A DNA stretch of 11,447 nt from assembly GCA_016780605.1 (NCBI GenBank), contig JADHLS010000080.1, positions 1-11,447 on the forward strand, read 5' to 3'. The DNA is from Reyranella sp. Its GTDB lineage: Bacteria > Pseudomonadota > Alphaproteobacteria > Reyranellales > Reyranellaceae. Positions 1 through 11,447 of this stretch are shown one piece after another (the first letter of the stretch is position 1; each line of letters opens with the position of its first letter). Under the pieces are notes generated by a model. The model was not told the origin of the DNA and ran no database searches. It saw nothing but the letters and a program-made list of their open reading frames with translations. The translations under genes and the position numbers were made by a program.

Positions 1-1518
1 ATCGAGGCGCGGGTTACGCATGTCGTCGACACCGAGGAACTGGACCCGCAGGAATATGCGCTGACCAAGGACTATGCCGTGCAGCACGGGTTCCGCGCCC
101 AGCTCAATGCCCCGATGCTGCAGGAAGGCCGTGCCATCGGCTGCATTTGCCTGCGCCGGCGAAATCCCGGCGCCTTCACCTCGCGCCAGATCGAGCTTCT
201 CGAGACCTTTGCCGCACAGGCTGTCATCGCTATCCAGAATGTGCACCTCTTCACCGAGCTTCGCGAGGCGCTGGAGTACCAGACCGCGACCAGCGAGGTG
301 CTGAAGGTGATGAGCCGCTCGACCTTCGACCTCGGGCCGGTGTTGCAGACCGTGATCGAAACCGCCGCCCGCCTGTGCAAGGCCGAGATGGGCGGCGTGT
401 TCCAGCTCGAGGACGACGGCGCCTTCCACTGGAAGGCGGGCCATGCACTCGACCCGCGCTACCAGGAGCACGAGCGGGAGACGCCGCACTATCCCGGCGA
501 GGATACGCTGGTCGGTCGCGTCGCCCTGCGCGGCGCGCCGGTGTCGGAGCTCGACGCGCTCAACGATCCGGCGTACGGGCCGCGCGACATGGCGGAAATC
601 GGCCAGGTGCGGTCGATGCTGGGTGTGCCGATGCTGCGCGACGGCAGGCTGTTTGGCGTCATGTGCCTGGCGCGTACCCGGGTCGAGGCCTTCTCAACGA
701 AGCAGGTCGAGGCGATGACGGTGTTCGCCGATCAGGCCGTGATCGCCATCGAGAACGTCCGCCTGATCAACGAGATCCGCGACAAGAGCCACCAGCTCGA
801 GGTCGCCAGCCAGCACAAGTCGCAGTTCCTGGCCAATATGAGCCACGAGCTGCGCACGCCACTCAACGCCATCATCGGATACACCGAGATGATGGCCGAC
901 GGCCTCTACGGCGACGTGCCCGAGAAGGCACAGGGCGTGCTGGAGCGCGTGCAGGCCAATGGGCGGCATCTGCTGGGCCTGATCAACGACGTGCTCGACC
1001 TCTCCAAGATCGAGGCGGGCCAGCTGGTGCTGGCGATGGAGGAATATTCCGTCGCCGACATGGTGGGCACGGTGCTGTCGGCCACCGAGTCGCTGGCCCG
1101 TGCCAAGAACCTGCGGCTTGGCTCCGACGTACCGGCCGGCCTGCCCACCGGCACCGGCGATGCACGGCGGCTCACCCAGGTGCTGCTGAACCTGGTGGGC
1201 AATGCCATCAAGTTCACCGACCAGGGTTCGGTCGAGGTGCGCGCGGCCCAGGTCGACGGGCGCTTCGAGCTGTCGGTGGTCGACACCGGCTTCGGCATCG
1301 CGCCCGAGGATCAGGCCAAGATCTTCGAGGAGTTCCAGCAGGTCGACAACACCAGCACGCGCAAGAAGGGCGGCACGGGGCTGGGGCTGTCGATCTCGCG
1401 CCGCATTGTCGAGCTGCATGGCGGCCGCATCACCGTCGAATCCGAGGTGGGCAAGGGCTCGATCTTCAAGGTCGTCGTCCCGGTCAACGCCTCGCCCATC
1501 AAGGAAGCCGCGCAATGA
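1..1518 (+). CDS. GAF-domain sensor histidine kinase (5' end outside the window)
   Basis: The frame is open from base 1, so the true start lies upstream; 505 residues are visible. Residues about 1-85 are the end of one GAF domain and about 95-255 a second, complete GAF domain, so this is a cytoplasmic ligand- or redox-sensing kinase with no membrane segment in view. The HisKA H-box ([14 protein letters not shown]) puts the phospho-accepting His at about residue 282. The HATPase_c domain shows the N-box ([10 protein letters not shown], about 397-406), G1 (DTGFGI, about 428), F-box (IFEEFQQ) and G2 (GGTGLGL, about 457-463), so it should be catalytically active. It ends without a fused receiver; its stop overlaps the start of the receiver gene by ATGA, implying translational coupling and a cognate pair. 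The internal GTG at 79 is not a believable start because it would cut the first GAF domain. The ligand is unknown. Confidence 0.93.
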
Positions 1519-1880
1519 GCAAGAAAATCCTGGTCGTCGAGGACACCGAGGACAACCGCCAGATCCTGCGCGACCTTCTCGGCATGTCGGGTTACGACAT
1601 GGTCGAGGCGCACGACGGCGCGGAGGGCGTGGCCAAGGCCGCCGAGCACAAGCCCGACCTGATCCTGATGGACATCCAGATGCCGGTGATGGACGGCTAC
1701 GAGGCGACGCGGCGCATCAAGGCCGATCCGGCGCTCAAGGCCATCCCGATCATTGCCGTGACTTCCTATGCGCTCTCCGGCGACGAGGAGAAGGCGCGCG
1801 CCGCGGGCTGTGACGGCTACATCGCCAAGCCCTACTCGCCGCGCCAGATGCTGGCCAAGGTGCGCGAGGTGATTGGATGA
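1515..1880 (+). CDS. Single-domain CheY/DivK-like response regulator
   Basis: This 121-residue protein is one receiver domain with no output domain. The acidic pair is E9/D10, the phospho-acceptor Asp is D53 (LMDIQMP), the switch Thr is T83 and the conserved Lys is K105 (AKP), so all phosphorylation residues are present. The [16 protein letters not shown] stretch resembles DivK and receivers that follow hybrid kinases in alphaproteobacteria. The ATG lies inside the kinase stop codon, and AAGGAAG seven bases upstream, within the end of the kinase gene, is a good ribosome binding site. It probably takes phosphate from the upstream kinase and passes it on or acts by protein contact. It is not called divK because that gene usually lies elsewhere and identity cannot be proven here. 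Confidence 0.93.
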
Positions 1881-1899
1881 GTCACGCTGGCGCTCATGA

Positions 1900-1960
1900 T
1901 GGAGCGCGGACCTCCAGGTCCGCTCATGATCATGATGCGGACCTGGAGGTCCGCGCTCCA
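1900..1960 (+). repeat. REP-like nested palindromic element
   Basis: Two 24-base arms (1900-1923 and 1937-1960) are perfect reverse complements. The 13-base centre contains the palindrome TCATGATCATGA (1924-1935) plus one extra T. Each arm can also fold alone: GCGGACC-TCCA-GGTCCGC on the left (1907-1922 region) and GCGGACC-TGGA-GGTCCGC on the right (1937-1954). The 10-mer CGCTCATGAT occurs at 1891-1900 and again at 1921-1930. No T-tract follows, so it is not a typical intrinsic terminator. The nested form, and its place in the only sizeable gap of this signalling cluster, suggest a dispersed REP/BIME-type element. Whether it recurs in the genome cannot be seen from one copy. Confidence 0.7.
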
Positions 1961-1982
1961 ATAAAGAGGCCCGCCGCCAGCA

Positions 1983-3077
1983 ATGCGTAACCCCGCGCGC
2001 ATCCTGGTCGTCGACGATGTCGCCGACAATGTCGAGATTCTGCGCATGCGGCTCCAGTCGCTGGGCTATGAGGTGGTCGTAGCCATGGACGGCGAGCAGG
2101 CGCTGGCCAAGGTGCGCGAGGAGCTGCCCGACCTCGTGCTGCTCGACATCATGATGCCCAAGATCGACGGGCTGGAGGTCGTGCGCCGGCTCAAGGCCGA
2201 CACGACGCTGCCCTTCATTCCGGTGATCCTGGTGACGGCCAAGGCCACGCCCAAGGATGTCGTGGCCGGCCTCGACGCCGGCGGCGACGACTATCTCACC
2301 AAGCCGATCGACCACGGCGCGCTGGTGGCGCGCGTGCGCGCCATGCTGCGCATCAAGGCGCTGCACGACGAGATCCAGGAGCTGAACAAGGGGCTGGAGG
2401 CCAAGGTGCAGGCGCAGGTCGGCGAGCTGGAGCGAGTCGGCCGCCTGCGCCGTTTCCTGGCGCCACAGCTTGCCCAGGCCATCGTCTCGGCGGGCGACGA
2501 ATCGATCCTGGGCAACCATCGCCGCGAGATCGTCGCCATGTTCTGCGACCTGCGCGGCTTCACGGCGTTCTCGGAGAGCTCCGAGCCCGAAGACATCATG
2601 CAGCTGCTGGCCGAGTACCACGGCGCGCTGGGGCCGCTGATCCGCGAGCACGAGGGCACGCTCGACCGCTTCACCGGCGACGGCATGATGGTGTTCTTCA
2701 ACGATCCTCTGCCCTGCCCCGACGCGCCGGAGCGCGCCACGCGGCTTGCCATCGCCATGCGCGACGCGGTGGCCGACCTTGGCATCGCCTGGCGCAAGCG
2801 CGGCCACCGCCTGGGCTTCGGTATCGGCATGGCCCAGGGCTACGCCACGCTGGGCCGTATCGGCTTCGAGGACCGCTTCGACTACACGGCGATCGGCTCC
2901 GTCATCAATCTGGCGGCGCGTCTGTGCAGCGAAGCGGCCGACGGCGAGGTCCTGGTGAGCGGGCGCCTCGCCGCAGCGGCGGAGACCGTGGCCGAGGTCG
3001 AGGAGCTGGGCGAGCGCCAGCTGAAAGGCATGGCGCGCCCGGTGGCGGTGTCGTGCCTGCGGGGGCTCAAGGCGTAA
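1983..3077 (+). CDS. Response regulator fused to class III adenylate/guanylate cyclase
   Basis: The 364-residue protein has a receiver domain (about 5-122; D11/D12, phospho-Asp D55, T85, K107), a helical linker likely to form a dimer coiled coil (about 125-160), and a class III nucleotide cyclase domain (about 180-330). Metal-binding Asp residues are D189 (FCDLRGFT) and D233 (FTGDGMM). The transition-state pair is N309/R313 (INLAARL). T302 sits at the purine-recognition position where class IIIa has Asp, which marks class IIIb; the usual Lys four residues before D233 is Arg (R229). It should make cAMP, or possibly cGMP, under control of receiver phosphorylation, with the upstream kinase as likely donor. 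The ATG at 1983 follows only a weak, distant GAGG (1966-1969), and a palindromic repeat fills the gap upstream. No membrane segment is seen. Confidence 0.92.
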   Translation: MRNPARILVVDDVADNVEILRMRLQSLGYEVVVAMDGEQALAKVREELPDLVLLDIMMPKIDGLEVVRRLKADTTLPFIPVILVTAKATPKDVVAGLDAGGDDYLTKPIDHGALVARVRAMLRIKALHDEIQELNKGLEAKVQAQVGELERVGRLRRFLAPQLAQAIVSAGDESILGNHRREIVAMFCDLRGFTAFSESSEPEDIMQLLAEYHGALGPLIREHEGTLDRFTGDGMMVFFNDPLPCPDAPERATRLAIAMRDAVADLGIAWRKRGHRLGFGIGMAQGYATLGRIGFEDRFDYTAIGSVINLAARLCSEAADGEVLVSGRLAAAAETVAEVEELGERQLKGMARPVAVSCLRGLKA

Positions 3078-3106
3078 GTCGCTGAAAAGGACAGATTATT
3101 CGGCTT

Positions 3107-3132
3107 GGAACACTTCGCCCTGGCGAGGCGTT
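3107..3132 (+). promoter_or_regulatory. EcfG-type general stress promoter
   Basis: GGAAC at 3107-3111, a 17-base spacer and CGTT at 3129-3132 match exactly the promoter consensus known for alphaproteobacterial EcfG/RpoE2 sigma factors (GGAAC-N16/17-CGTT). The start of transcription would fall near 3139-3141, about 30 bases before the ATG at 3171. The site lies in the 93-bp gap between the receiver-cyclase and the small membrane protein, in the right direction. It is read from sequence only. Confidence 0.72.
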
Positions 3133-3170
3133 CATCTGCAGGCGCTTCCGGACCAGAAAGGAGTGACGAG

Positions 3171-3455
3171 ATGAGCGACTACATCCCCAATCCCCCCAAC
3201 CCCGAACGCGACCGTCGCAACTACGAGCGCTACTACGAGGACAATAGCGGCAGGGGCGTGACCCTGGTCGTGGGCATCCTGGTCGCGATCGCGCTGGCCG
3301 CCGGCCTGATGTTCTTCGCGGGCTCGCCCGATGAGCGCACGGAGCAAGCCCAGTTGCCGGCACAGGAACGGACCATCCCGAACCCGGCTCCGGCGCCGGC
3401 CACGCCGACGACACCGCCCGCCACGACACCTGCGCCGGCGAATCCGCGCCAGTAG
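3171..3455 (+). CDS. Small single-span membrane protein with Pro/Ala/Thr-rich tail
   Basis: The 94-residue protein has a charged, Tyr-rich N-terminal stretch (1-28), one membrane helix (about 29-51) and a low-complexity tail rich in Pro, Ala and Thr (about 63-94). This suggests an N-in inner-membrane protein with a short extended periplasmic tail. The start at 3171 is chosen because AAGGAG (3158-3163) lies seven bases before the ATG and because the EcfG-type promoter would start transcripts near 3140, after the longer alternative start at 3105. No known family is recognised. The promoter suggests induction in the general stress response, where small membrane proteins of unknown role are common. 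Confidence 0.8.
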   Translation: MSDYIPNPPNPERDRRNYERYYEDNSGRGVTLVVGILVAIALAAGLMFFAGSPDERTEQAQLPAQERTIPNPAPAPATPTTPPATTPAPANPRQ

Positions 3456-3475
3456 CCCCGACGGTCACCTTCGGC

Positions 3476-3513
3476 AAAAAAATGGCCCGGCCACGACAGG
3501 CGTGGTCGGGCCA
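3476..3513 (-). terminator. Intrinsic terminator, strong on the minus strand
   Basis: Arms 3483-3495 and 3501-3513 form a 13-bp stem with a single mismatch/G-T wobble position and a 5-base loop. On the minus strand the stem runs directly into seven T (3482-3476), a textbook intrinsic terminator for the secreted-protein gene that ends at 3626. On the plus strand the stem is followed by AAAAGGCCTTTT (3513-3524), a weaker tail, so it may also stop transcripts of the small membrane protein gene that ends at 3455. Confidence 0.85.
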
Positions 3514-3625
3514 AAAGGCCTTTTGTGTCTCCAACGCTTCCTAGCATGAGCGTGAGTCGTCATCCAAGGCGGCTTCACGCGCTTGCCATGCAAAGCTGAC
3601 CTGTCGAGACCGCAGACGCCGCGCC

Positions 3626-4063
3626 TTACTTGCCGATCTTGTCGAACGGCGGCCGCAGGAACAGCGGCACGCTCACGCCGCGCATTTCCGCCAGGCTGTG
3701 CTCCACGTCCTTAGAGATGCAGCGCCGATCGAGGGAGGCGTCCTTGGCGGTCGCCGGGTAGAAACGCACCGTGCTCAGCACCGCTTGGACCATCTCCGCG
3801 CTCTGGCGCGCGCTGGCCCCGGCCTTCTTCATCTTCTGCACAGCCTGTTCGATGTCAGCCTGCAGGCCGGCGTAAAGAAACGGCACCGTCTCGCTCGCGC
3901 CGCGCATGCAGTAGAAGATCAGCGAACGGTCGTCGGCATAATCCCGCGCCGCCATCATCGCCTGCTCGAACTGCGCGCGTTCCAGCGCTGCCTGGGCATG
4001 AGCGATAGGCACCGCAAGCACAAGGGTCGTGACGGCCAGAAATACGCGGGCTGATCGGAACAT
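3626..4063 (-). CDS. Secreted protein of unknown function
   Basis: The 145-residue protein starts with a clear Sec signal peptide: charged MFRSAR, a hydrophobic core, then AHA followed by Gln, with likely cleavage after residue 23. The mature part is mostly helical and polar, with two Cys (C52 and C115) that could form a disulfide in the periplasm. I recognise no enzyme motif or family. It is transcribed alone: its own upstream gap of over 200 bp holds a CRP-like site, and a strong terminator lies 113 bp after its stop. The ATG at 4063 has only a weak GGAAT upstream, so expression may be low or conditional. Confidence 0.82.
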   Translation of the reverse strand: MFRSARVFLAVTTLVLAVPIAHAQAALERAQFEQAMMAARDYADDRSLIFYCMRGASETVPFLYAGLQADIEQAVQKMKKAGASARQSAEMVQAVLSTVRFYPATAKDASLDRRCISKDVEHSLAEMRGVSVPLFLRPPFDKIGK

Positions 4064-4143
4064 GATTATTCCATTCTGGACGCGCGCTGGCGCCTTGTCG
4101 ATGAAGCCTCCCCGAGCAGATGCGCTGATTGTGCAGGAATATC

Positions 4144-4159
4144 AGTGATATTTGTCACC
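4144..4159 (-). promoter_or_regulatory. CRP-like binding site upstream of the secreted protein gene
   Basis: On the plus strand this reads AGTGA-TATTTG-TCACC, with the GTGA-N6-TCAC core of the classic CRP site intact (8 of 10 positions of TGTGA-N6-TCACA). It lies 81-96 bases before the ATG at 4063. It overlaps a second palindrome, AATATCA-G-TGATATT (4138-4152), which could be a separate operator. I see no convincing -35/-10 pair, so promoter geometry is unknown. The consensus is from gammaproteobacterial CRP; alphaproteobacterial homologues can differ. Confidence 0.4.
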
Positions 4160-4202
4160 TTTGCATCAGCTGCGACACACGACGAAATCACGCCCAAACG
4201 AA

Positions 4203-4231
4203 AGCGGCGGCACCTGGTCCGTGCCGCCGCT
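4203..4231 (-). terminator. Intrinsic terminator of the cyclase-haloperoxidase-protease cluster
   Basis: A perfect 11-bp stem (AGCGGCGGCAC at 4203-4213 with its complement at 4221-4231) carries a 7-base loop. On the minus strand it is followed by TTCGTTTG, a broken T-rich tail. It sits 45 bp after the stop of the SnoaL-like gene (4276) and so closes the minus-strand cluster. Termination may be partial because the T-tract is interrupted. Confidence 0.72.
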
Positions 4232-4275
4232 CTCTCTCATGGCCAACAGAGTCCGATGAACTCTCAGACGATCTT

Positions 4276-4638
4276 CTAGCTTGGCATCTTGTCGATGAAG
4301 CCGATGATCGAGGCGAGCTTGCCGTCGTCGGAGAGCGTCGCGAAGTCGACGCCTTCGACCACCGATGGCCCCGCTGCCGGACCGAGCGACCAGGCGAAGC
4401 GCACGGCGTTGTTGTGGCTGTCGATCTTCGAGATTCGCTTCAGCACGAAGCCCGGGAACTTGGCCTGCACGCCGGCCAGCATGGCGTCGAGCCCGGCATG
4501 GCCGTCGCTCACCATGACGGGATCGCGGTAGCTCGCATTGCCGGCGCACGACGCGGCCAACGCGGACTTGCGCTTGGCGGGATCGGTCTCGTTCCAGCTG
4601 GCGACGTAGTTCTCGACGACAGATTCAAGGGCGGACAT
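4276..4638 (-). CDS. SnoaL/NTF2-like small protein
   Basis: The 120-residue length and pattern fit the nuclear transport factor 2 / SnoaL-like fold: an N-terminal helix with YVASWNETDPAKR (11-23), then ASYRDP (35-40), HAGLDAML (47-54), a FPGF turn (61-64), and strands with VRFAWSLG (79-86) and VVEGVDFATL (93-102) ending in IIGFID. Members form a cone-shaped pocket that binds small hydrophobic ligands, and some act as isomerases, cyclases or hydrolases; the substrate here is unknown. There is no signal peptide. AGGAGG eight bases before the ATG is an excellent ribosome binding site. It lies 81 bp after the subtilase gene in the same direction and is probably the last gene of that operon. Confidence 0.85.
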   Translation of the reverse strand: MSALESVVENYVASWNETDPAKRKSALAASCAGNASYRDPVMVSDGHAGLDAMLAGVQAKFPGFVLKRISKIDSHNNAVRFAWSLGPAAGPSVVEGVDFATLSDDGKLASIIGFIDKMPS

Positions 4639-4719
4639 GGATGGCCTCCTGCAGTGGCTGTACGCCTGAAGAGAAGCGCGAATCAGGAAAACGAGCGATT
4701 TCCTCGCAGGTAATCAGGC

Positions 4720-6879
4720 TCAATACTCGTACCGCTTCACCTTCTGCAGCGGCGTGCCCCAGATGCGGCCCGCACCGCTACGCTCGTCCGGCGGCTTCGC
4801 CACTGCCGGCGGGGGCGGTGGCTCCGAGGGTGCCTGCTCGGCCAGGCTCTGCACGTAGGCGTTGTCGCCCAAGCCACCGGCCGCCAGATCGTCCGCGACC
4901 ATGCGTGCGACCTGCGGTGCTGCAACGCTGGTCCCGCCAATGGGCACCCGCGCGCCGCTGTGTGAGCCCGCCGCCAATCGGCCCTCAAGCACGAGCGAAT
5001 CCTCGCTTGGCGCCGAGGCATCAGGCCAGCGCGGCGGCCTCGGCCGCGGCTGGCGCGCGCCCGCCGAAGAATACTCGGCCATCACCATTTCCTTGCGCAG
5101 GATGCCGCCAATCACGATCGGATCGGCGCCGCAGGCGATGGCGTTGAGGCTGCACTGTCGCTGGACCAGGCTGTCGTTGTCGACCTGCAGGCGACGGCCG
5201 CTGTAGGGACTATGGATGCGGTAGGTGCGATCGCCGAGGTACGACTGGCGGCCGAACTGCGGATAGCCGGGAACGCTATCGTCCCGCGCCACCCAGGCGT
5301 CGATGTAATCGGTGGCGGCAAGCCCGCCGGTATGCGTGAGCGAAATGCGGTAGTAGCCACACGGACAGATGCTGGCCGTCGTGAGTGTCTCGGTCGGCGG
5401 CAGGAAGATGTAGAACGCGCTCTTCGTGTTGTAGTTTCGATGCACCAGCCAGCCGGGGTAGCTGTTGCCGAGCGGCACGGCGGTGTCGTTCTCGTCGATG
5501 GTGAAGCTGTCGCCCAACGGATCGGTCACGGTGAGCTGCAGCCGGCTATTCGATCCGACATATGGCGGCGTCCAAACCTCGACAAAGCTCTCCGTCTGGT
5601 CATTGGGCAACACCTGCCAGTCGAATGCATGCGTAGGATGGTCGGCGTCGAAGGTCATCTGCGCGTGTGTGCGCGAGAGGAAGCTGTTGCCGGAGGGCAG
5701 CACGAAGCGCAGCGTGATGCCGAGAAATCCAGCCTTGTAGACCATGTCCTGGATCAGCGCTTCCACGTCGCCCGAGCCGTCGTGCGGGCCCTCGAGACGG
5801 CCGTAGCTGAAGTTGATCACGACCGGCAGCGGGCCGTGGCCCTTGGTCAGGCAGTAGAGCAGCATCTGCAGCACGATGAAGGCCACGGCCGGCAGCAGGA
5901 ACGGCGAGAGCTGCCCGTTGTCGACATCGGCCGTCACCTCGATCGGCAGCTGCACGCAGGCGACGGGGCGGTCGACGCGGTTGTCGGCGACCGCATAGCC
6001 GCAGGCGGCGTCCATGACGTGCGTCCCGTGCGATATCCGCCACGCCGCGGCCTTGTGGTACTCGTCGTTGCAGAAGTCGATGAGGCCGGCCCTGCGGTAG
6101 ACGTCATCCTCCTCGAGCACGCCGTTGCCGTTGGTGCAGGCGGCGAACAGGGTGTCAATCGCCGGCTGAATCAGGCTCTTGCCTCCGCCACCCGTCGCCA
6201 TCGCCCACCAGCCCTGCACGCGGCTGAGGTGCTGACCGCTGCTGGACTTCACGCGGAACCGCTCGTTGGCGAAGGCAATGCCGTCGTCGATCACGCCCAC
6301 GAACACGCGAGCCTGGGTGCCGCTCGGCGGCGGCAGCGCGGCAACTTGCGGCGCCAGGCCCGCCAGCCCGCCCGCCGGCATGCCGGGAATGACAAGCGGC
6401 AGCGATGCGGTGTTGAGCGGGCGGCCGAGGACCACGCTCAGCACTTCGTCACCGGACACCATCCGAGTCATGACCGTGGGAGGGGCGAGGGCCAGCAGCC
6501 AGTCGCTGCCGGCATCCTCGTCCTCCGCCGTCACACCGGCGAAGGGCGCGATGAAGGTGGTGTCTTCCCAATCCTTGCGCAGAGGGTCGCGCTTCTTGAG
6601 CACCGTGTCGCCCTTGGCGAAATCCAGAGCGCTGCCCTTGACCTGCATCAGCAGGGTAAGCCGCTTGTCGGGACCATCCTGCAGGCCCGACGGAAAGTAG
6701 AGCGCCTTGCCCGGCCCGCAGGCCCAGGCGACGTAGGGATTGACCCTGGGATCCCGCGGATCCGGCGCGCCATCAGGAATGACGAGCTTGCGAGGCTTGG
6801 GCTTTTTCGCAGGCTTGTGTCTGCGCGGCGCGGTCTTGCGCGCGGGGCTCTTGCGCCCTGAAGTCTTGCGCTGGGCCAT
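4720..6879 (-). CDS. Subtilisin-family (S8) serine protease with long insertion and basic N-terminal tail
   Basis: The 719-residue protein has the full subtilase triad: Asp198 (VGVIDDGIA), His284 (SHGTHV) and Ser651 (GGTSVAAP), plus oxyanion Asn398 (PSGNSF). Asn to Ser spans 253 residues, against about 66 in subtilisin. The extra part (about 410-600) looks beta-rich, with WTPPYVG and LTVTDPLG motifs, and recalls the jelly-roll insert of Csp-type subtilases. There is no signal peptide; instead residues 1-31 carry 14 Lys/Arg and no acid, like a histone-H1-type tail. A hydrophobic stretch (about 325-345) is probably core helix, not a membrane span. The C-terminus is Pro-rich (685-697). GAGGAG seven bases before the ATG supports the start. 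It follows the LGG-repeat gene by 33 bp, so that protein is a natural candidate substrate or partner, but this is inference. Confidence 0.9.
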   Translation of the reverse strand: MAQRKTSGRKSPARKTAPRRHKPAKKPKPRKLVIPDGAPDPRDPRVNPYVAWACGPGKALYFPSGLQDGPDKRLTLLMQVKGSALDFAKGDTVLKKRDPLRKDWEDTTFIAPFAGVTAEDEDAGSDWLLALAPPTVMTRMVSGDEVLSVVLGRPLNTASLPLVIPGMPAGGLAGLAPQVAALPPPSGTQARVFVGVIDDGIAFANERFRVKSSSGQHLSRVQGWWAMATGGGGKSLIQPAIDTLFAACTNGNGVLEEDDVYRRAGLIDFCNDEYHKAAAWRISHGTHVMDAACGYAVADNRVDRPVACVQLPIEVTADVDNGQLSPFLLPAVAFIVLQMLLYCLTKGHGPLPVVINFSYGRLEGPHDGSGDVEALIQDMVYKAGFLGITLRFVLPSGNSFLSRTHAQMTFDADHPTHAFDWQVLPNDQTESFVEVWTPPYVGSNSRLQLTVTDPLGDSFTIDENDTAVPLGNSYPGWLVHRNYNTKSAFYIFLPPTETLTTASICPCGYYRISLTHTGGLAATDYIDAWVARDDSVPGYPQFGRQSYLGDRTYRIHSPYSGRRLQVDNDSLVQRQCSLNAIACGADPIVIGGILRKEMVMAEYSSAGARQPRPRPPRWPDASAPSEDSLVLEGRLAAGSHSGARVPIGGTSVAAPQVARMVADDLAAGGLGDNAYVQSLAEQAPSEPPPPPAVAKPPDERSGAGRIWGTPLQKVKRYEY

Positions 6880-6912
6880 GGCAATCTCCTCGGTGAACCC
6901 GATGATCGACGA

Positions 6913-8169
6913 TCAGGTCCACTCCGCCAGCGCCTTCCCCCACAGCCAGTTCAGCAATGGGCTGATCTGGACCGACAGGGCCCCCGTGGTGTTGAGCTTG
7001 GTGACGTACGATGGCTGGGTGAGGATGTTGCCGGTCGCCGGATCGATGTAGAGCGTCCAGTAGAAGTCGCCATCCGCCATCGCCGCCGTCCCCTGCGGGA
7101 AGTTGGGGCCGTCGAACTTGTAGGCATCGTAGGTCACGCCCGTCGTCGACGTGGTCTTGCAGCGCGCCACGAAGTAATAGCCAAGGGTCAGGCCAAGCAC
7201 GCAGCCGGCTGCGCTGTCGACGGGGAAGTGCACCCCCGCGATCGTCCTGTTGACGGCGATGCGGTTGGCCAGGCGGATCAGCTGTTCGAGCCACGTCATC
7301 AGCTCATAGGGCTTGGTCCCCGTCGTCGCGGTGCTGGACGGCGGCGCCGCCGTCTTCAGCAACCGCCACAGAACCGCCGCCGCCATGAAGCCCTCGGTCG
7401 CATGGCCGCTGGGGAACGTCGAATGCGACGGCGTCAGGATCATGGGCTGGACCTGCGGCGAGTATTCGATGGGCCGGCGGCTGGCCAGCGCCTGCTTCAT
7501 CCGCATGTGACAGAAGTTGGCCATGCGCTGCGTCGCCGCCAGGAGCTCGAGCGTGTACGGAGTGCGCGCCGGATGCAGGTACGGGATCGAGCACATGAAC
7601 GCCATGCCACCGCTCAGCTGCGTCATGATCTCGGTCGCCCGATCGGGCCGCAGATCGGCGTAGCTGTTCAAGAAGTCGAGGTACTTGGCAAACTGGTCTT
7701 CGCCGGGTCGCCTGAGGACGACCAGCGGCTGGTAGGTCGCGCTGGTGGCGGTGGAGCCGGTGCCCGGCGTGAGGTGGCGGATCGCCATCTGGTCGCTGGC
7801 CAATGCCTTGAAGCCGAGGCATGACATCAGCTCGAAGTCGATGACGCTCGCCCGACACCAGGCCTCCCAGCGTTTCATGTTTTCGGGGTCTTCCGTCGGC
7901 AGATTGGCCGGCGTATCGCCCGGCGCCAGCGGCATCCAGGATCCGACGATGCCCTCGCGCGTGGTGATCAGGGCGGCCGCGGCCGCGGCCGAGTTGACCG
8001 GGGCAAGCCCACCAAGGCCGCCCAAGCCGCCGAGACCTCCCAGGCCGCCAAGCCCGCCCAGGCCACCGAGGCCGCCGAGGCCTCCCAGCCCACCCAGGCC
8101 TCCGAGACCGCCAAGACCTCCCAGGCCGCCGAGCCCACCGAGCCCGCCGAGATATCCTTCCGTCGCCAT
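6913..8169 (-). CDS. PAP2 / vanadium haloperoxidase-type protein with N-terminal Leu-Gly-Gly repeat
   Basis: The 418-residue protein opens with MATEGY, then sixteen exact LGG units and a final Leu (7-55), then a short Ala run (61-66). The rest (about 75-418) is a PAP2/vanadium-haloperoxidase fold with all three phosphate or vanadate-binding motifs: K225-X6-R232-P233, P253-S254-G255-H256, and N307-R308-X5-H314-X3-D318, the last with Asn where Ser is usual. H256 and H314 correspond to the acid-base and vanadate/phosphate-ligand His. The long helical N-terminal part and lack of many membrane spans favour the soluble haloperoxidase-like branch over membrane PAP2 lipid phosphatases, but the reaction (halide oxidation or phosphate ester hydrolysis) cannot be told from sequence. 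There is no signal peptide. AGGGGAG seven bases before the ATG supports the start. It sits 32 bp after the cyclase and 33 bp before the protease. Confidence 0.9.
   Translation of the reverse strand: MATEGYLGGLGGLGGLGGLGGLGGLGGLGGLGGLGGLGGLGGLGGLGGLGGLGGLAPVNSAAAAAALITTREGIVGSWMPLAPGDTPANLPTEDPENMKRWEAWCRASVIDFELMSCLGFKALASDQMAIRHLTPGTGSTATSATYQPLVVLRRPGEDQFAKYLDFLNSYADLRPDRATEIMTQLSGGMAFMCSIPYLHPARTPYTLELLAATQRMANFCHMRMKQALASRRPIEYSPQVQPMILTPSHSTFPSGHATEGFMAAAVLWRLLKTAAPPSSTATTGTKPYELMTWLEQLIRLANRIAVNRTIAGVHFPVDSAAGCVLGLTLGYYFVARCKTTSTTGVTYDAYKFDGPNFPQGTAAMADGDFYWTLYIDPATGNILTQPSYVTKLNTTGALSVQISPLLNWLWGKALAEWT
8005..8151 (-). repeat. In-frame 9-bp tandem repeat coding sixteen Leu-Gly-Gly units
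   Basis: The stretch codes 16 consecutive LGG units plus a final Leu with no amino-acid change. At DNA level the units differ: Leu is CTC, CTG, CTT or TTG and Gly uses all four codons, giving 13 different 9-mers among the 16 units by my reading. Perfect peptide with varied codons points to selection on the peptide and not to fresh slippage. The adjacent GC-only run (about 7973-7990) codes the Ala stretch. Confidence 0.95.
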
Positions 8170-8201
8170 GGTCGCTCTCCCCTCTATCTTGCGTTAGCGC
8201 A

Positions 8202-9992
8202 TCACTCCGGAATGCCCGCTTTACGCAACACCTCCGCCGCCGTGCGGCCGATCTGGTAGCCGGCGGCCGGCGAGCTCTTCAGCCAGCCGCTGACCGTCAT
8301 GGTGGGCTGCAGCTTCAGCAGCTGCTGCGCCGATTTGCGTGCGGCGTCGACTTGGCCGAGCTGCCACTGCGCCACCGTCATGGAGCGCAAGGTCGACGTG
8401 TGCTTGCGGTTGGCGCGCAGCGAGCGCTGCGCCAGGTCGACCGCGCGCTGGTAGTTGCCGGCGGCGACGGCGGCGGTGGCGGCAAGTGAATCGTAGAAGT
8501 AGCGGTGCGGGTCGAGCGGCGACAGCGCCAGCGCCCGTTCGGTGTGCTCGACCGCCTGCGCCCCTTCGCTCTTGAAAGCATGCAGCGTGCCCTTGAGCAG
8601 CCAGGCATAGGCATTGCTGGGATTGGCGGCCAGCGCGTGCTCGTAGGATTCCTCGGCGACGTCGAACTGCTTCAGGAGATTGACGTGCACGAAGCCGTTG
8701 ATGGCGAGCGCCTGCGAGTTGTCGGGATCGAGATCGAGCGCGCGCTTGGTGCATTCCGAGGCAAGATAAGTGTCGCGCTGGGGATCGTCCGACCAGCCCT
8801 GCTGGACGCGCAGCACGTGCCAGTTGCCGAGCCAGGCGATCGGCAGGGGATGGCGCATGCCGCGGTCGACCAGCGCCTGCAGCAGCCGATGCGCTTCCTC
8901 GAAGTCGGGAAGCGACAGGCGATGCATCAGGCTGACCGCACCCATCAGCAGGGTGTAGGCCTTGAGCGTGGGCAGCGGCTGGGAGCGCGAGCGCTGGACC
9001 TCGCGCGCCGTCACCGCGGCGCCGACCGAGGCGATCAGCTGGCCGACAAGTGCCTGCTCGCCGCTCACAATGTCGCAAAGCGAGTCCTCGAGGTTGCCGA
9101 TCCACAGCACGCGGCCGGCCTTGGTCTCGGCCAGCTCGACGTCGAGCGTGAGCCGCTTGTCGGCGGTGCGATAGGCACCCGAAAGCACATAGTCGGCGCC
9201 AAGATGCGCACCGATGTCCTGCAGGCGCGCATTGCGGCCGCTGAACGCCGTGGTCGAGAGCCGCGACACCAGCTTGAGGTCCGACGACTGAGACAGGCGG
9301 CGGATGATCTCCTCGGCGAGGATCTCGCCCACCACGCCCTGGTCGGCGGCGACGTTGCGCGAGGTGAACGGAACGACGGCGATCGAAGGTGCGAGCTCAT
9401 CCCAGGACGCAGCCGGCGCCACGATCGAGCGCGGACCGGGTGGGCCGACGCGGTAGGCACGGATCGGCTCGGCCAGCCCGCGCACGTAGCAATCGCCCAG
9501 GTCCTCGATGTCGGCATCGAGGTCGGCGGTGATGCCGTCGCGCACATGCTGCGACACCACGATCTCGCCGGGACCGGCCAAGTTCATCAGACGATTCGCG
9601 AGATTGACGCCGTGACCCAGGATGTCGTCGTCGCCGACAATGACGTCGCTCACCTCCACGCCGGCGCGCAGCATGATGTGGCGATCCGAGACGCGCCCGG
9701 CATTGGCGCGCACACGCTCCTGCTGGATGGCGAGCGCGGCGGACACGGCCGAGCGCACGTCGTCGAAGTCGAGCAGCATGCCGTCGCCCAGGCTCTTGAT
9801 GAACCGGCCGTGGTGGCGGGCGAGGATGGTCCGCTTCACGTGATCGACGAAGGCCAGCCAGTGGGTGATCGTTCCCACCTCATCCTGCTCGATGAGTCGA
9901 ACCGACCCCACGATGTCGACGAGCAGGACCGCTCGCTTGGCCCACGCTACGTGACGATGTGACCGGAACTCGGAGAGATCGAGTTCTGCCAT
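8202..9992 (-). CDS. Class III adenylate cyclase with TolB-like domain and TPR repeats
   Basis: The 596-residue protein has no signal peptide or membrane span. An N-terminal class III cyclase domain (about 17-185) carries every key residue: metal Asp D26 (LVDIVGS) and D70 (SLGDGML), adenine-selecting K66 and D123, and transition-state N130 and R134 (GVNLANRL), so it should make cAMP. Next is a TolB/FlgO-like nucleotide-independent fold (about 203-300, starting IAVVPF), then a helical region with about four TPR-like units (about 408-563), likely for protein contact. This layout is widespread in alphaproteobacteria. An ATG at 9992 is chosen with GGGGG upstream; a GTG at 9998 in frame adds two residues and is possible. 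A CRP-like site lies in the 134-bp gap upstream, suggesting cAMP feedback. It is the first gene of the minus-strand cluster, 32 bp before the LGG-repeat gene. Confidence 0.9.
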   Translation of the reverse strand: MAELDLSEFRSHRHVAWAKRAVLLVDIVGSVRLIEQDEVGTITHWLAFVDHVKRTILARHHGRFIKSLGDGMLLDFDDVRSAVSAALAIQQERVRANAGRVSDRHIMLRAGVEVSDVIVGDDDILGHGVNLANRLMNLAGPGEIVVSQHVRDGITADLDADIEDLGDCYVRGLAEPIRAYRVGPPGPRSIVAPAASWDELAPSIAVVPFTSRNVAADQGVVGEILAEEIIRRLSQSSDLKLVSRLSTTAFSGRNARLQDIGAHLGADYVLSGAYRTADKRLTLDVELAETKAGRVLWIGNLEDSLCDIVSGEQALVGQLIASVGAAVTAREVQRSRSQPLPTLKAYTLLMGAVSLMHRLSLPDFEEAHRLLQALVDRGMRHPLPIAWLGNWHVLRVQQGWSDDPQRDTYLASECTKRALDLDPDNSQALAINGFVHVNLLKQFDVAEESYEHALAANPSNAYAWLLKGTLHAFKSEGAQAVEHTERALALSPLDPHRYFYDSLAATAAVAAGNYQRAVDLAQRSLRANRKHTSTLRSMTVAQWQLGQVDAARKSAQQLLKLQPTMTVSGWLKSSPAAGYQIGRTAAEVLRKAGIPE

Positions 9993-10070
9993 TGCCACCC
10001 CCGAGCCTTGTGGACGGCGACGCCCATCGGCTCTCCGAACGCGACGTTAGCAAGCCGCCGGGGACTCGAA

Positions 10071-10086
10071 AGTGACAATCCTCACA
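10071..10086 (-). promoter_or_regulatory. CRP-like binding site upstream of the adenylate cyclase cluster
   Basis: On the plus strand this reads AGTGA-CAATCC-TCACA, nine of ten positions of the CRP consensus TGTGA-N6-TCACA. It lies 79-94 bases before the cyclase ATG at 9992, in the 134-bp gap after ccmI. No clear -35/-10 pair is seen; a poor candidate -10 (GCTAAC, about 10052-10047, minus strand) would put the site near -40. The site suggests that cAMP-CRP controls the gene that makes cAMP. The main weakness is that the consensus comes from gammaproteobacteria. Confidence 0.5.
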
Positions 10087-10132
10087 CTATTTCAACGGCT
10101 TCGCCCAAGGTCACAGCGATCGTTGCGGAGCC

Positions 10133-11374
10133 CTACTCGGTCTCCTTGATCCGCCTCTCCAGCATGTCGCGGATCGGCGCGTCGGCCGGCAGCAGTGCGA
10201 GCAGCGTCTTCCAGCGTTGGGCCGCCGCCTTCTTGTCGCCGGCGGCGAAGGAGGCGGCGCCGAGATAGAAGAGCGCCAGCCCGTTGCGCGGCTCGGCCTT
10301 CTCGAGGCGCTCGAGCACGGCGACGGCGGCCGGCGACGGCGGCTCGCCGGGCTTCAGTCCGCGGACATGGGCCTCGGCCCAATCGGCCAGAATGCGGGCA
10401 TCGACCGGCGCCAGCGCATCGGCCTTGGCGTAGGCGTCGACGGCGCTGGCGTTCTCGCCCAGCACCTTCCAGGCGTTGGCGAGCCGCAGCCAGCCCGCGC
10501 GGTCCTGCGGATTGTCCTTCAGGCGCGCGGCCAGGCCCTCGACCATGCCGCGAATCGCCTGCTGACGCTGCTCGGGCGTCAGCGCCGCCATGGCGTCCTG
10601 CTGCTCACGCGACGGCTGCGGCATGGCAGTGCCGGCCGGCGCAGGCAGGCCGGCCTCGCGCGCGACCCGCGCCATCTCGGCCCGCAGCATGGGCAGGAAC
10701 GGCGCGTCGGGCGGGCTTTTGGCCTCGAGCTCCTGCCAGCGCTTCAGCGCCGCTGCACCATCGCCCGCCTGCGCATCGTGCAGCCCGAGATAGTAGAGCG
10801 AGCGCGCGTCGTTGGGCTGCAGCGCCACCGCCTTGTTGAAGGCTTCGACGGCGGCTGGCGCCACGGTGCCGTCGGCTTCGAGGGTGAGCGCCTCGCCCAG
10901 CGCCGACTGGGCCTCGGGATTGTTGGGCTGCTGGGCGGCAAGGGCGCGCGCCTCCGCCACCAGACGCGCGACGTCCATGGGCTGCGCGGCCGGCGGCTTG
11001 GCGCCGGCGACGAACGGCGCGGCCGGCAAGCCGGGATGGCCGATCTTGAGATAAAGGCCGAGCGCCAGCAGCGGGATGGCGAGCGCCAGCGCCGGCGGCA
11101 GCAGGCGATGCAGCGTCGAGGATGTCGTGATGGCGGGCCGCGCGACGTCGGCTGCGGCGAGGATGCGGCGCTCGATCTCAAGTCGCGCGGCGGCCGTTTC
11201 GGACTCGCTGAGGGCCCCGCTCGCGCGATCGCGCTCGATCTCGGCGAGCTGATCGCGATAGATCGCGAGCTCGCCTTCCAGGCGACCAGCCGAGGGTGTC
11301 TCGGCGCGCAACAGCGGAATCAACAGCGCACCGACCGTCGCCGTGGCCAGGAGAGCGAGCAGGAACTCGAGCAC
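10133..11374 (-). CDS. ccmI: Cytochrome c maturation protein CcmI (CycH)
   Basis: The 413-residue protein shows the CcmI layout: a first membrane helix (about 2-22), a cytoplasmic heptad-like loop (about 28-75, RLEGELAIYRDQLAEIERD), a second membrane helix (about 88-110), and a large periplasmic TPR part (about 135-413). CcmI is the apocytochrome c chaperone that hands apoprotein to the CcmF/CcmH haem lyase at the outer face of the inner membrane. The TPR part looks duplicated, with related segments near 218-242 (SPPDAPFLPMLRAEMARV) and 395-409 (PADAPIRDMLERRI). The start is GTG at 11374: a TAA lies directly upstream in frame, so nothing longer is possible. It begins 11 bp after the ccmH stop, implying coupled translation. 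The gap after its TAG has no clear terminator. Confidence 0.9.
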   Translation of the reverse strand: MLEFLLALLATATVGALLIPLLRAETPSAGRLEGELAIYRDQLAEIERDRASGALSESETAAARLEIERRILAAADVARPAITTSSTLHRLLPPALALAIPLLALGLYLKIGHPGLPAAPFVAGAKPPAAQPMDVARLVAEARALAAQQPNNPEAQSALGEALTLEADGTVAPAAVEAFNKAVALQPNDARSLYYLGLHDAQAGDGAAALKRWQELEAKSPPDAPFLPMLRAEMARVAREAGLPAPAGTAMPQPSREQQDAMAALTPEQRQQAIRGMVEGLAARLKDNPQDRAGWLRLANAWKVLGENASAVDAYAKADALAPVDARILADWAEAHVRGLKPGEPPSPAAVAVLERLEKAEPRNGLALFYLGAASFAAGDKKAAAQRWKTLLALLPADAPIRDMLERRIKETE

Positions 11375-11385
11375 TTAACGCACCG

Positions 11386-11447
11386 TCAGCGTCCGAGCAG
11401 GGAGCGCAGCCGATCGCGCTCCTCCTCGCTGAGCGGCGGCAGGGGCG
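11386..11447 (-). CDS. ccmH: C-terminal end of cytochrome c maturation protein CcmH (5' end outside the window)
   Basis: Reading in from the right edge on the minus strand, the last 19 codons give PLPPLSEEERDRLRSLLGR and then TGA at 11388-11386. The acidic LSEEERDRL...LL ending is typical of the CcmH C-terminus, and the position 11 bp before ccmI fits the ccmH-ccmI order of ccm operons. CcmH is the membrane-anchored thiol-redox part of the haem lyase; its CXXC motif is beyond the window. The call rests on a short tail plus context. Confidence 0.65.
   Translation of the reverse strand, partial: PLPPLSEEERDRLRSLLGR

Follow-up and report, generated by a model that had tools for sequence, protein, structure and literature searches.

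A conserved bacterial gene trio: a TPR regulator, a PAP2-fold enzyme with a lineage-specific tandem peptide array, and a protease

Four minus-strand genes on a Reyranella sp. contig (JADHLS010000080.1 of assembly GCA_016780605.1, positions 1 to 11,447, the whole of which we call the window; its genome bin is 60.7% complete) raise the question of whether a cyclase-TPR protein (gene 1), a PAP2-fold protein that begins with a run of LGG tripeptides (gene 2), an S8 subtilase (gene 3) and a SnoaL-like protein constitute one system, and of what the tripeptide run does there. A first-pass annotation made from the sequence alone had taken the four genes to be one functional unit, and its description of the layout is borne out: the open reading frames (ORFs; Table 1) are separated by gaps of 32, 33 and 81 bp, Shine-Dalgarno (SD)-like GGAG/GAGG motifs precede the PAP2, S8 and SnoaL genes, Pfam recognizes all four families (Guanylate_cyc with TPR, PAP2, Peptidase_S8 and SnoaL_2), the LGG repeat is present, and a hydropathy scan of the proteins revealed no signal-peptide-like N-terminus. 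Its observations and its interpretation each stand in part. Genes 1 to 3 are conserved together and the SnoaL gene is not one of them, and what was overlooked is that the repeat is a family-wide, lineage-specific feature rather than the oddity of a single protein.

Three conserved genes and a tandem array

Using an alignment of 46 PAP2 proteins with the window protein first (A1), we scanned GTDB genomes and found 506 stretches that encode a PAP2 relative, of which the best 80 were retained (type I); these represent the near part of the PAP2 family. The S8 protein directly adjoins PAP2 in all 80 of these best 80 of 506, the outcome of a co-occurrence check that the first-pass annotation had proposed; in L005, L008 and L013 the S8 frame is divided between two ORFs, and in L018 and L056 a contig end truncates it. 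A TPR regulator belonging to a single sequence cluster adjoins PAP2 in 79 of 81 loci, the window included (75 directly upstream on the same strand, 4 divergent), the two misses (L065 and L073) being loci at which the contig ends inside PAP2. Regulator and PAP2 lie a median of 35 nucleotides (nt) apart, and just one of 70 gaps exceeds 100 nt. The trio occurs in Alpha-, Beta- and Gammaproteobacteria and in one metagenome-assembled Anaerolineae genome. In a reciprocal check, for which only the best few candidates per genome were scored, matches to an S8 profile and strong PAP2 matches coincided in 5 of 289 class-level genomes (6 loci) and in the same 15 of 398 phylum-level genomes; at that depth none of the 398 had an S8 match without a strong PAP2 match, and four had weak PAP2 matches only, one of them (G478) with an adjoining weak S8 match of 56 bits. 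We conclude that genes 1 to 3 are a conserved module composed of a TPR regulator whose output domain can be exchanged, a repeat-tailed PAP2 enzyme and a protease of varying family. The folds of the components are all known; among the papers listed in searches of the open-licence literature we found no description of the trio or its array, and the module and array match no described kind that we found there.

The N-terminus of PAP2 contains an exact tandem tract, 12 residues long or longer, in 79 of 81 loci and in all 79 with an intact gene (the misses are the truncated genes of L065 and L073), with a median length of 31 over all 81 and a period of 3 in 78 of the 79. The longest tract in shuffled PAP2 sequences was 10 residues, and a comparable tract of at least 12 was found in none of 75 regulators and in one of 81 S8 proteins. 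The unit varies by lineage: LGG, VGG, IGG, AGG, AAG, FGA, FGG, FGS, GSL, SGF, SGL, AGY, GAY, NGY, TGW, SGW, TGV, LNG, LEG, NGE, GGE, SGD, SSD, GGH, RAQ (AQR), STF and NSF are all found in type I loci, some arrays contain one or two deviant units (e.g., L006, L013, L014 and L022), and array length differs between close relatives. Fourteen additional loci from the scan of the 398 genomes, which partly overlap the first set (a second PAP2 match in G672 was left out), had an array in 14 of 14 cases and the regulator in 12, and added the units TAM, AGV, AGR, QTQ, AGN and SGGA. An in-frame start codon with an SD-like motif, loosely defined, precedes 75 of 79 arrays, and such a start lies within 40 codons after the array in 11 of 79. 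At least three copies were present in 9 of the best 120 type I database proteins and in 77 of 120 proteins of the more distant type II described below; array-less type I proteins include fragments and others whose predicted start lies inside or beyond the array, as in P0006 (Microvirga arsenatis), which is predicted to start beyond most of the 14 copies encoded in the DNA of L008. That predicted proteins so often lack the array may explain why it has been overlooked.

The window PAP2 protein (418 residues; PF01569, 45 bits against a cut-off of 27.2) carries the motifs K225/R232-P, PSGH at 253-256 and R308/H314/D318. K225, R232, H256, R308 and H314 are invariant over the 46 rows of A1, and in the segment that follows the array columns 72 (D; E in the window), G73, I74 and G76 are nearly invariant in type I. 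The best structural matches of its model (predicted local distance difference test score, pLDDT, 81) are class A non-specific acid phosphatases (PhoN, PhoC and E. blattae AP), with which it shares the PAP2 fold and the K-RP/PSGH/R-H-D motifs. However, the matched phosphatase chains have only 211-237 residues, and the window protein adds a tandem repeat tail and lacks their signal-peptide-like start, the N-terminus being occupied by the array; it also has N before the catalytic R, where the class A signature has S. The enzyme is probably a phosphatase, either cytosolic or non-classically exported.

Gene 1 encodes a cyclase domain (approximately residues 20-180), a FlgO/TolB-like middle and a TPR C-terminus. 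The window cyclase (PF00211, 28.8 bits against a cut-off of 21.9) has D28, K68, D72, N132 and R136, and with them the metal, substrate and transition-state residues of a class III nucleotide cyclase. Across 79 regulators the six aligned cyclase positions read D-K-D-x-N/S-R in 48 and D-R-D-R-N-R in 7 more; L057 has D-H-D-R-M-R, L020 and L078 are incomplete there, and 21 are not cyclase-like. Sixteen of the 23 atypical regulators (those 21 plus L126 and L127) contain Trans_reg_C and one contains BTAD, and the PAP2 tree requires three to four changes of the output domain. By domain assignment, then, the output is exchangeable between a predicted class III cyclase and a predicted winged helix. Known class III cyclase-TPR proteins and winged helix-turn-helix-TPR regulators of the CadC/HilA kind likewise join a cyclase or Trans_reg_C output to a TPR region; the module regulators differ from other cyclase paralogues in adjoining a repeat-tailed PAP2 gene, and their output is swapped within one locus family. 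The regulator family had 97 matches in five genomes, and among the 30 loci recovered 8 adjoin PAP2, all 8 with arrays, while the other 22 had neither PAP2 nor a repeat-tailed neighbour. In two relatives (L173, L174, L175 and L177), cyclase genes of this family also stand three to five in a row, in tandem, with no PAP2 or repeat-tailed neighbours within the stretches examined.

The protease of type I modules is a Csp-like subtilase. In the window it has a Csp-like fold with a jelly-roll-like insert at approximately 405-540 and a basic N-terminus, and the triad and oxyanion residues listed in Table 1, whose roles were assigned by us, are invariant in 35 S8 rows. Csp germination proteases (CspB/CspA/CspC), which share the fold with its jelly-roll insert, belong to spore formers and act on a cortex hydrolase; in contrast, the hosts of the module are not spore formers, and the subtilase there is paired with a PAP2 protein.

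More distant PAP2 proteins (type II; 78-98 bits to A1) show which parts of the module vary. The window's family contributed 14 distinct type II loci; the regulator adjoins PAP2 in all 14, in tandem or divergently, and arrays are present in 13, nine of them of at least 12 residues (TGN, DAA, ADG, LD, DGA, MS and NEG) and four shorter (LN); outside the genus the pair of regulator and array-bearing PAP2 recurs in L186 (DAR), L187 (TGN) and L189 (TSN). A protease domain was recognized in 12 of 19 ORFs scanned downstream of type II PAP2 genes (ten of the 19 were picked because they recur beside PAP2, and L140 was left out): six have PF00082, a non-Csp subtilase (L129 twice, L130, L132, L135 and L136), and six have PF01828, peptidase A4 (L128, L134, L141, L142, L122 and L189). 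Two presumed catalytic residues are invariant across the A4 alignment: Gln within (Y/W)Q(W/F)W and Glu within AEWIxERP. The protease thus appears exchangeable as well, being a Csp-like subtilase in near relatives and, by its predicted domains, another subtilase or an unrelated A4 peptidase in distant ones. Eight PAP2 loci that match the type II profile more weakly (61-97 bits) had no array of at least 12 residues and no regulator within up to about 1.5 kb on either side. Some individual loci stand out. In L122 about 12 kb of one genome hold two modules: a divergent S8 relative accompanies the one, whose array is SGS, and an A4 peptidase the other, whose array is TGN; an additional regulator match there contains an internal stop. 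L141 and L142 have type II PAP2 frames of 672 and 619 residues in which a long insert separates the array from the PAP2 core, and the type II PAP2 of L154/L180 carries the longest array seen, a GT dipeptide repeated 31 times.

Codon make-up of the array and changes of its unit

Codon mixture in amino-acid repeats is a sign of selection. As a mean over the 79 arrays, the codon differs between two units in 65% of comparisons (0.651), against 62% (0.621) expected from operon usage; mixing is significantly higher than expected in 8 arrays and significantly lower in 6. Adjacent units use the same codon at a frequency of 0.261 (lag 1), as compared to 0.316-0.354 at lags 2-7, and this deficit has a combined Z of -6.8 over the 51 arrays of at least 24 residues, -3.9 when one array is taken from each group chosen by us (26 arrays), and -3.5 in Reyranella (7 arrays). 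Because adjacent units avoid the same codon and codons are as mixed as operon usage, the codon pattern indicates that repeat peptide is retained while repeat DNA is avoided, pointing to selection on the array peptide rather than recent slippage; on the same grounds we rejected the array as a product of replication slippage. Codon-mixed repeats of eukaryotic proteins have been studied through their codon make-up in the same way (e.g., PMC1557989); the arrays described here are bacterial, of short period and uniform, with a lineage-specific unit.

The unit has changed at least 37 times on the PAP2 tree of 79 tips. In two Microvirga loci (L016 and L021) whose remaining PAP2 sequences are 91% identical, V stands against I in all 12 units with no residual codon match. 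Residual codon match in close pairs with differing units does not exceed z = 1.2, but in several same-unit pairs at similar divergence it is low too (z of about 1). The comparisons therefore suggest at most that units may be replaced in one step rather than stepwise. The array is an evolutionary puzzle: a near-uniform peptide encoded by codon-scrambled DNA, differing even among close relatives.

What the array may be for

Our preferred reading, which we offer as tentative, is that the regulator controls the module, that the array serves as a multivalent address for some partner that reads it, and that the protease acts on the phosphatase. Control would run through a cyclic nucleotide and a CRP-family factor where gene 1 has a cyclase, and directly through DNA where it has a winged helix. 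The array, presumably disordered, would be read unit by unit. Its most likely reader is the superhelical TPR domain encoded by gene 1; the regulator would in this way sense or retain the enzyme, its own product, and the protease would cut or release that enzyme. Uniformity of the array, and not any particular triplet, would be the target of selection, because a register-tolerant multivalent ligand requires identical units. We favour the TPR domain as reader because arrays accompany the TPR regulator regardless of its output domain or of the protease, and because designed repeat proteins bind tandem tripeptides, four to six of them (PMC10115654). The principle we propose is the same there, a repeat protein with tandem tripeptides, the one designed and the other natural. 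Across 74 loci with 30 unit types, array identity correlates in close pairs with the parts of the regulator (partial r 0.50-0.61) and with those of S8 at 0.02-0.34. A more specific form of this reading, which we regard as rather doubtful, is a natural private-address system in which each lineage's uniform tripeptide tail is read by its own TPR regulator, the address being rewritten whole and kept uniform in peptide and non-repetitive in DNA, with output domain and protease as exchangeable plug-ins. If a TPR domain does read the array, the module offers repeat receptors that are paired in nature with repeat peptides and evolve with them, of use for orthogonal tags and for following how a binding code changes.

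Several observations weigh against this reading. The covariation that we sought between the array and the TPR region specifically was not found, since every regulator segment correlates alike: the cyclase segment also has a partial r of 0.50, the N- and C-terminal parts of S8 reach 0.32 and 0.34 in close pairs, and over all 74 loci it is the S8 N-terminal part that ranks highest (0.26, as compared to 0.16-0.23 for regulator parts). Microvirga pairs with V and I arrays are as similar in their TPR regions (0.90-0.96) as pairs sharing a unit, and linkage could be the cause of the correlation between array and regulator. Individual loci depart from the pattern as well: L139 has a type II PAP2 with the regulator and no array, no regulator was seen in 2 of the 14 additional loci within the stretches examined, array units of period 2, 4 and 6 also occur, and no protease was recognized in 7 of the 19 type II downstream ORFs (L131, L133, L138, L139, L180, L186 and L187; one ORF each, the L187 flank being short). 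PAP2 and S8 are convergent at one locus each in two genomes, so co-transcription is not universal. As to signalling, the cyclase position aligned with residue 129, which we take to be that of the adenine-reading Asp, is H in the window and is Asp in none of the 55 regulators with the other cyclase residues (R in 35, H in 7, Q in 4 and A in 3), so the product may be something other than cAMP; phage-defence pyrimidine cyclases read the base through yet other residues (PMC11224242). CRP-like sites with at most two mismatches precede 21 of 72 loci against 8.2 expected, six of the 21 being one shared Paraburkholderia site, and the other 51 have none; given so modest and uneven an enrichment, we rejected CRP control as a family-wide rule.

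Alternatively, one could envision the array as low-complexity sequence of the sticker-spacer type, with units of the form [small][small][X] in which X is often an aromatic or aliphatic residue. It would drive homotypic assembly of the enzyme, identical units favouring in-register contacts and the protease dissolving the assembly. The low modelled confidence of the array (pLDDT <50) and the persistence of uniformity while the unit changes are consistent with this, and many units (GGX, GAY, SGF and FGA) resemble known low-complexity or silk-like motif types. However, we judge charged or polar units (DAR, NAD, SSD, AQR and AGR) to be poor stickers, and assembly leaves the association of array and TPR regulator unaccounted for; we consider it unlikely. 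If true, a single enzyme would come with some 30 natural variants of its assembly tag. This reading and the TPR reading alike propose a role for part of a large cyclase/TPR protein family.

A further candidate, somewhat behind self-assembly in our estimation, is a processing tail: the dedicated protease would trim the array or cut the segment that follows it (ALIxxRDGIVGxW), activating or releasing the enzyme, much as Csp proteases activate pro-SleC. The Csp-like fold of S8 and the near-invariance of the post-array segment in type I fit this role, as does the tracking of array identity by the S8 N-terminal part, and the recurrence of a protease from differing families in third place (Csp-like subtilases in type I; at 12 of the 19 type II ORFs scanned, A4 peptidases or subtilases of another kind) argues that proteolysis is a needed function. 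Arrays nevertheless persist at type II loci whose single scanned downstream ORF is no recognized protease, and the S8 catalytic domain is uncorrelated with array identity in close pairs (partial r 0.05). That domain is therefore unsupported as reader of the array; it is the N-terminal part of S8 that correlates.

We think it improbable that the module is an ordinary pair of regulated phosphatase and protease scavenging phosphate or nitrogen, with a tail left by neutral replication slippage. The phosphatase and protease families concerned are usually secreted hydrolases, the fold is acid-phosphatase-like, some members have CRP-like sites, and slippage could be read into the differing array lengths of close relatives and the six arrays with significantly reduced codon mixing. 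However, the proteins have no signal peptide by hydropathy scan, neutral slippage predicts that adjacent units be similar when instead they avoid the same codon, codons are on average as mixed as operon usage, and a neutral tail would not be expected in 79 of 79 loci. Less probable again is a vanadium haloperoxidase module serving chemical defence, as the first-pass annotation had in view, or quorum quenching: these haloperoxidases are soluble members of the same superfamily, but their structural match is lower than that of the acid phosphatases, and the motif spacing of the module protein is shorter. Least probable is a Pycsar-type anti-phage system of cyclase and effector, for which there are a weak PycC match of the cyclase (E 0.0084), the module's patchy occurrence in 5 of 289 genomes and in 15 of 398, and, among 96 flanking ORFs, a single match each to PycTIR and to a TIR effector, but in which the window's other three proteins (PAP2, S8 and SnoaL) have no Pycsar effector match and no PADLOC match at E 0.01, the flanking matches are scattered, and other lineages replace the cyclase domain.

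The window and its neighbourhood

Table 1. Features of the window relating to the module and the adjoining SnoaL gene
Feature	Position	Strand	Evidence or remark
Gene 1: TPR regulator; class III nucleotide cyclase domain at the N-terminus	8202..9998	-	Pfam Guanylate_cyc and TPR; start at ATG 9992 or GTG 9998
Gene 2: PAP2-fold enzyme, soluble; tandem tripeptide array at the N-terminus	6913..8169	-	Pfam PAP2; invariant alignment columns; model; fold matches
LGG array (x16.3), PAP2 residues 7-55	8005..8151	-	13 distinct DNA units among 16; modelled with pLDDT <50
Conserved post-array segment, PAP2 residues 66-78, ALITTREGIVGSW	7936..7974	-	Family consensus ALIxxRDGIVGxW
Gene 3: subtilase with Csp-protease-like fold	4720..6879	-	Triad D198, H284, S651; oxyanion N398
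SnoaL_2-like protein gene; neighbour outside the conserved unit	4276..4638	-	Pfam SnoaL_2
CRP-like site TGTGAGGATTGTCACT	10071..10086	-	79 nt 5' of ATG 9992; one mismatch to TGTGA-N6-TCACA
GC-rich hairpin 3' of the SnoaL gene	4200..4234	-	Arms 4200-4213/4221-4234

The SnoaL protein (SnoaL_2, 32.4 bits against a cut-off of 27) was rejected as a fourth conserved member, as tblastn found a relative near the module in only 3 of 109 loci, all from the window's genus (L004 and L117 were counted once). Its distance from the module is about 3 kb in L004/L117 and reaches about 5 kb in L129, whereas in L130 the relative (6281-6643, 60% identical) follows the subtilase of a type II module on the same strand after about 140 bp; in the window, too, SnoaL follows a subtilase on the same strand. 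SnoaL is a recurrent neighbour within the genus and no conserved member, and what is conserved of the unit in the first-pass annotation is genes 1 to 3. The two signals proposed to bracket the cluster fared similarly: the CRP-like site is present, but 22 of 200 shuffles of the window yield at least one equally good match, and the hairpin is present behind SnoaL, but it lacks a T-run and is not among the results of a terminator scan.

A defence scan of 96 of the 150 flanking ORFs listed at 12 loci, from which we excluded the module genes and some others, gave matches to seven families in at most four ORFs each, and on account of this scatter a defence island was rejected. The gene beside the regulator in the window (10133-11374) encodes a cytochrome c biogenesis TPR protein with a CcmH/CycH domain; the same gene flanks the type I trio in L002 and L004 and the type II version in L130, L132 and L135, as if one chromosomal address hosted alternative modules. 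On the far side of the window (1-3077), a gene for a GAF-histidine kinase is accompanied by two response regulator genes, one of which also encodes a cyclase domain, a second cyclase beside the module. Between the two response regulator genes is a perfect 24-nt inverted repeat with a 13-nt loop (1900-1960), which belongs to a dispersed family resembling repetitive extragenic palindromic elements and has 89 matches, on both strands, in the window's own genome.

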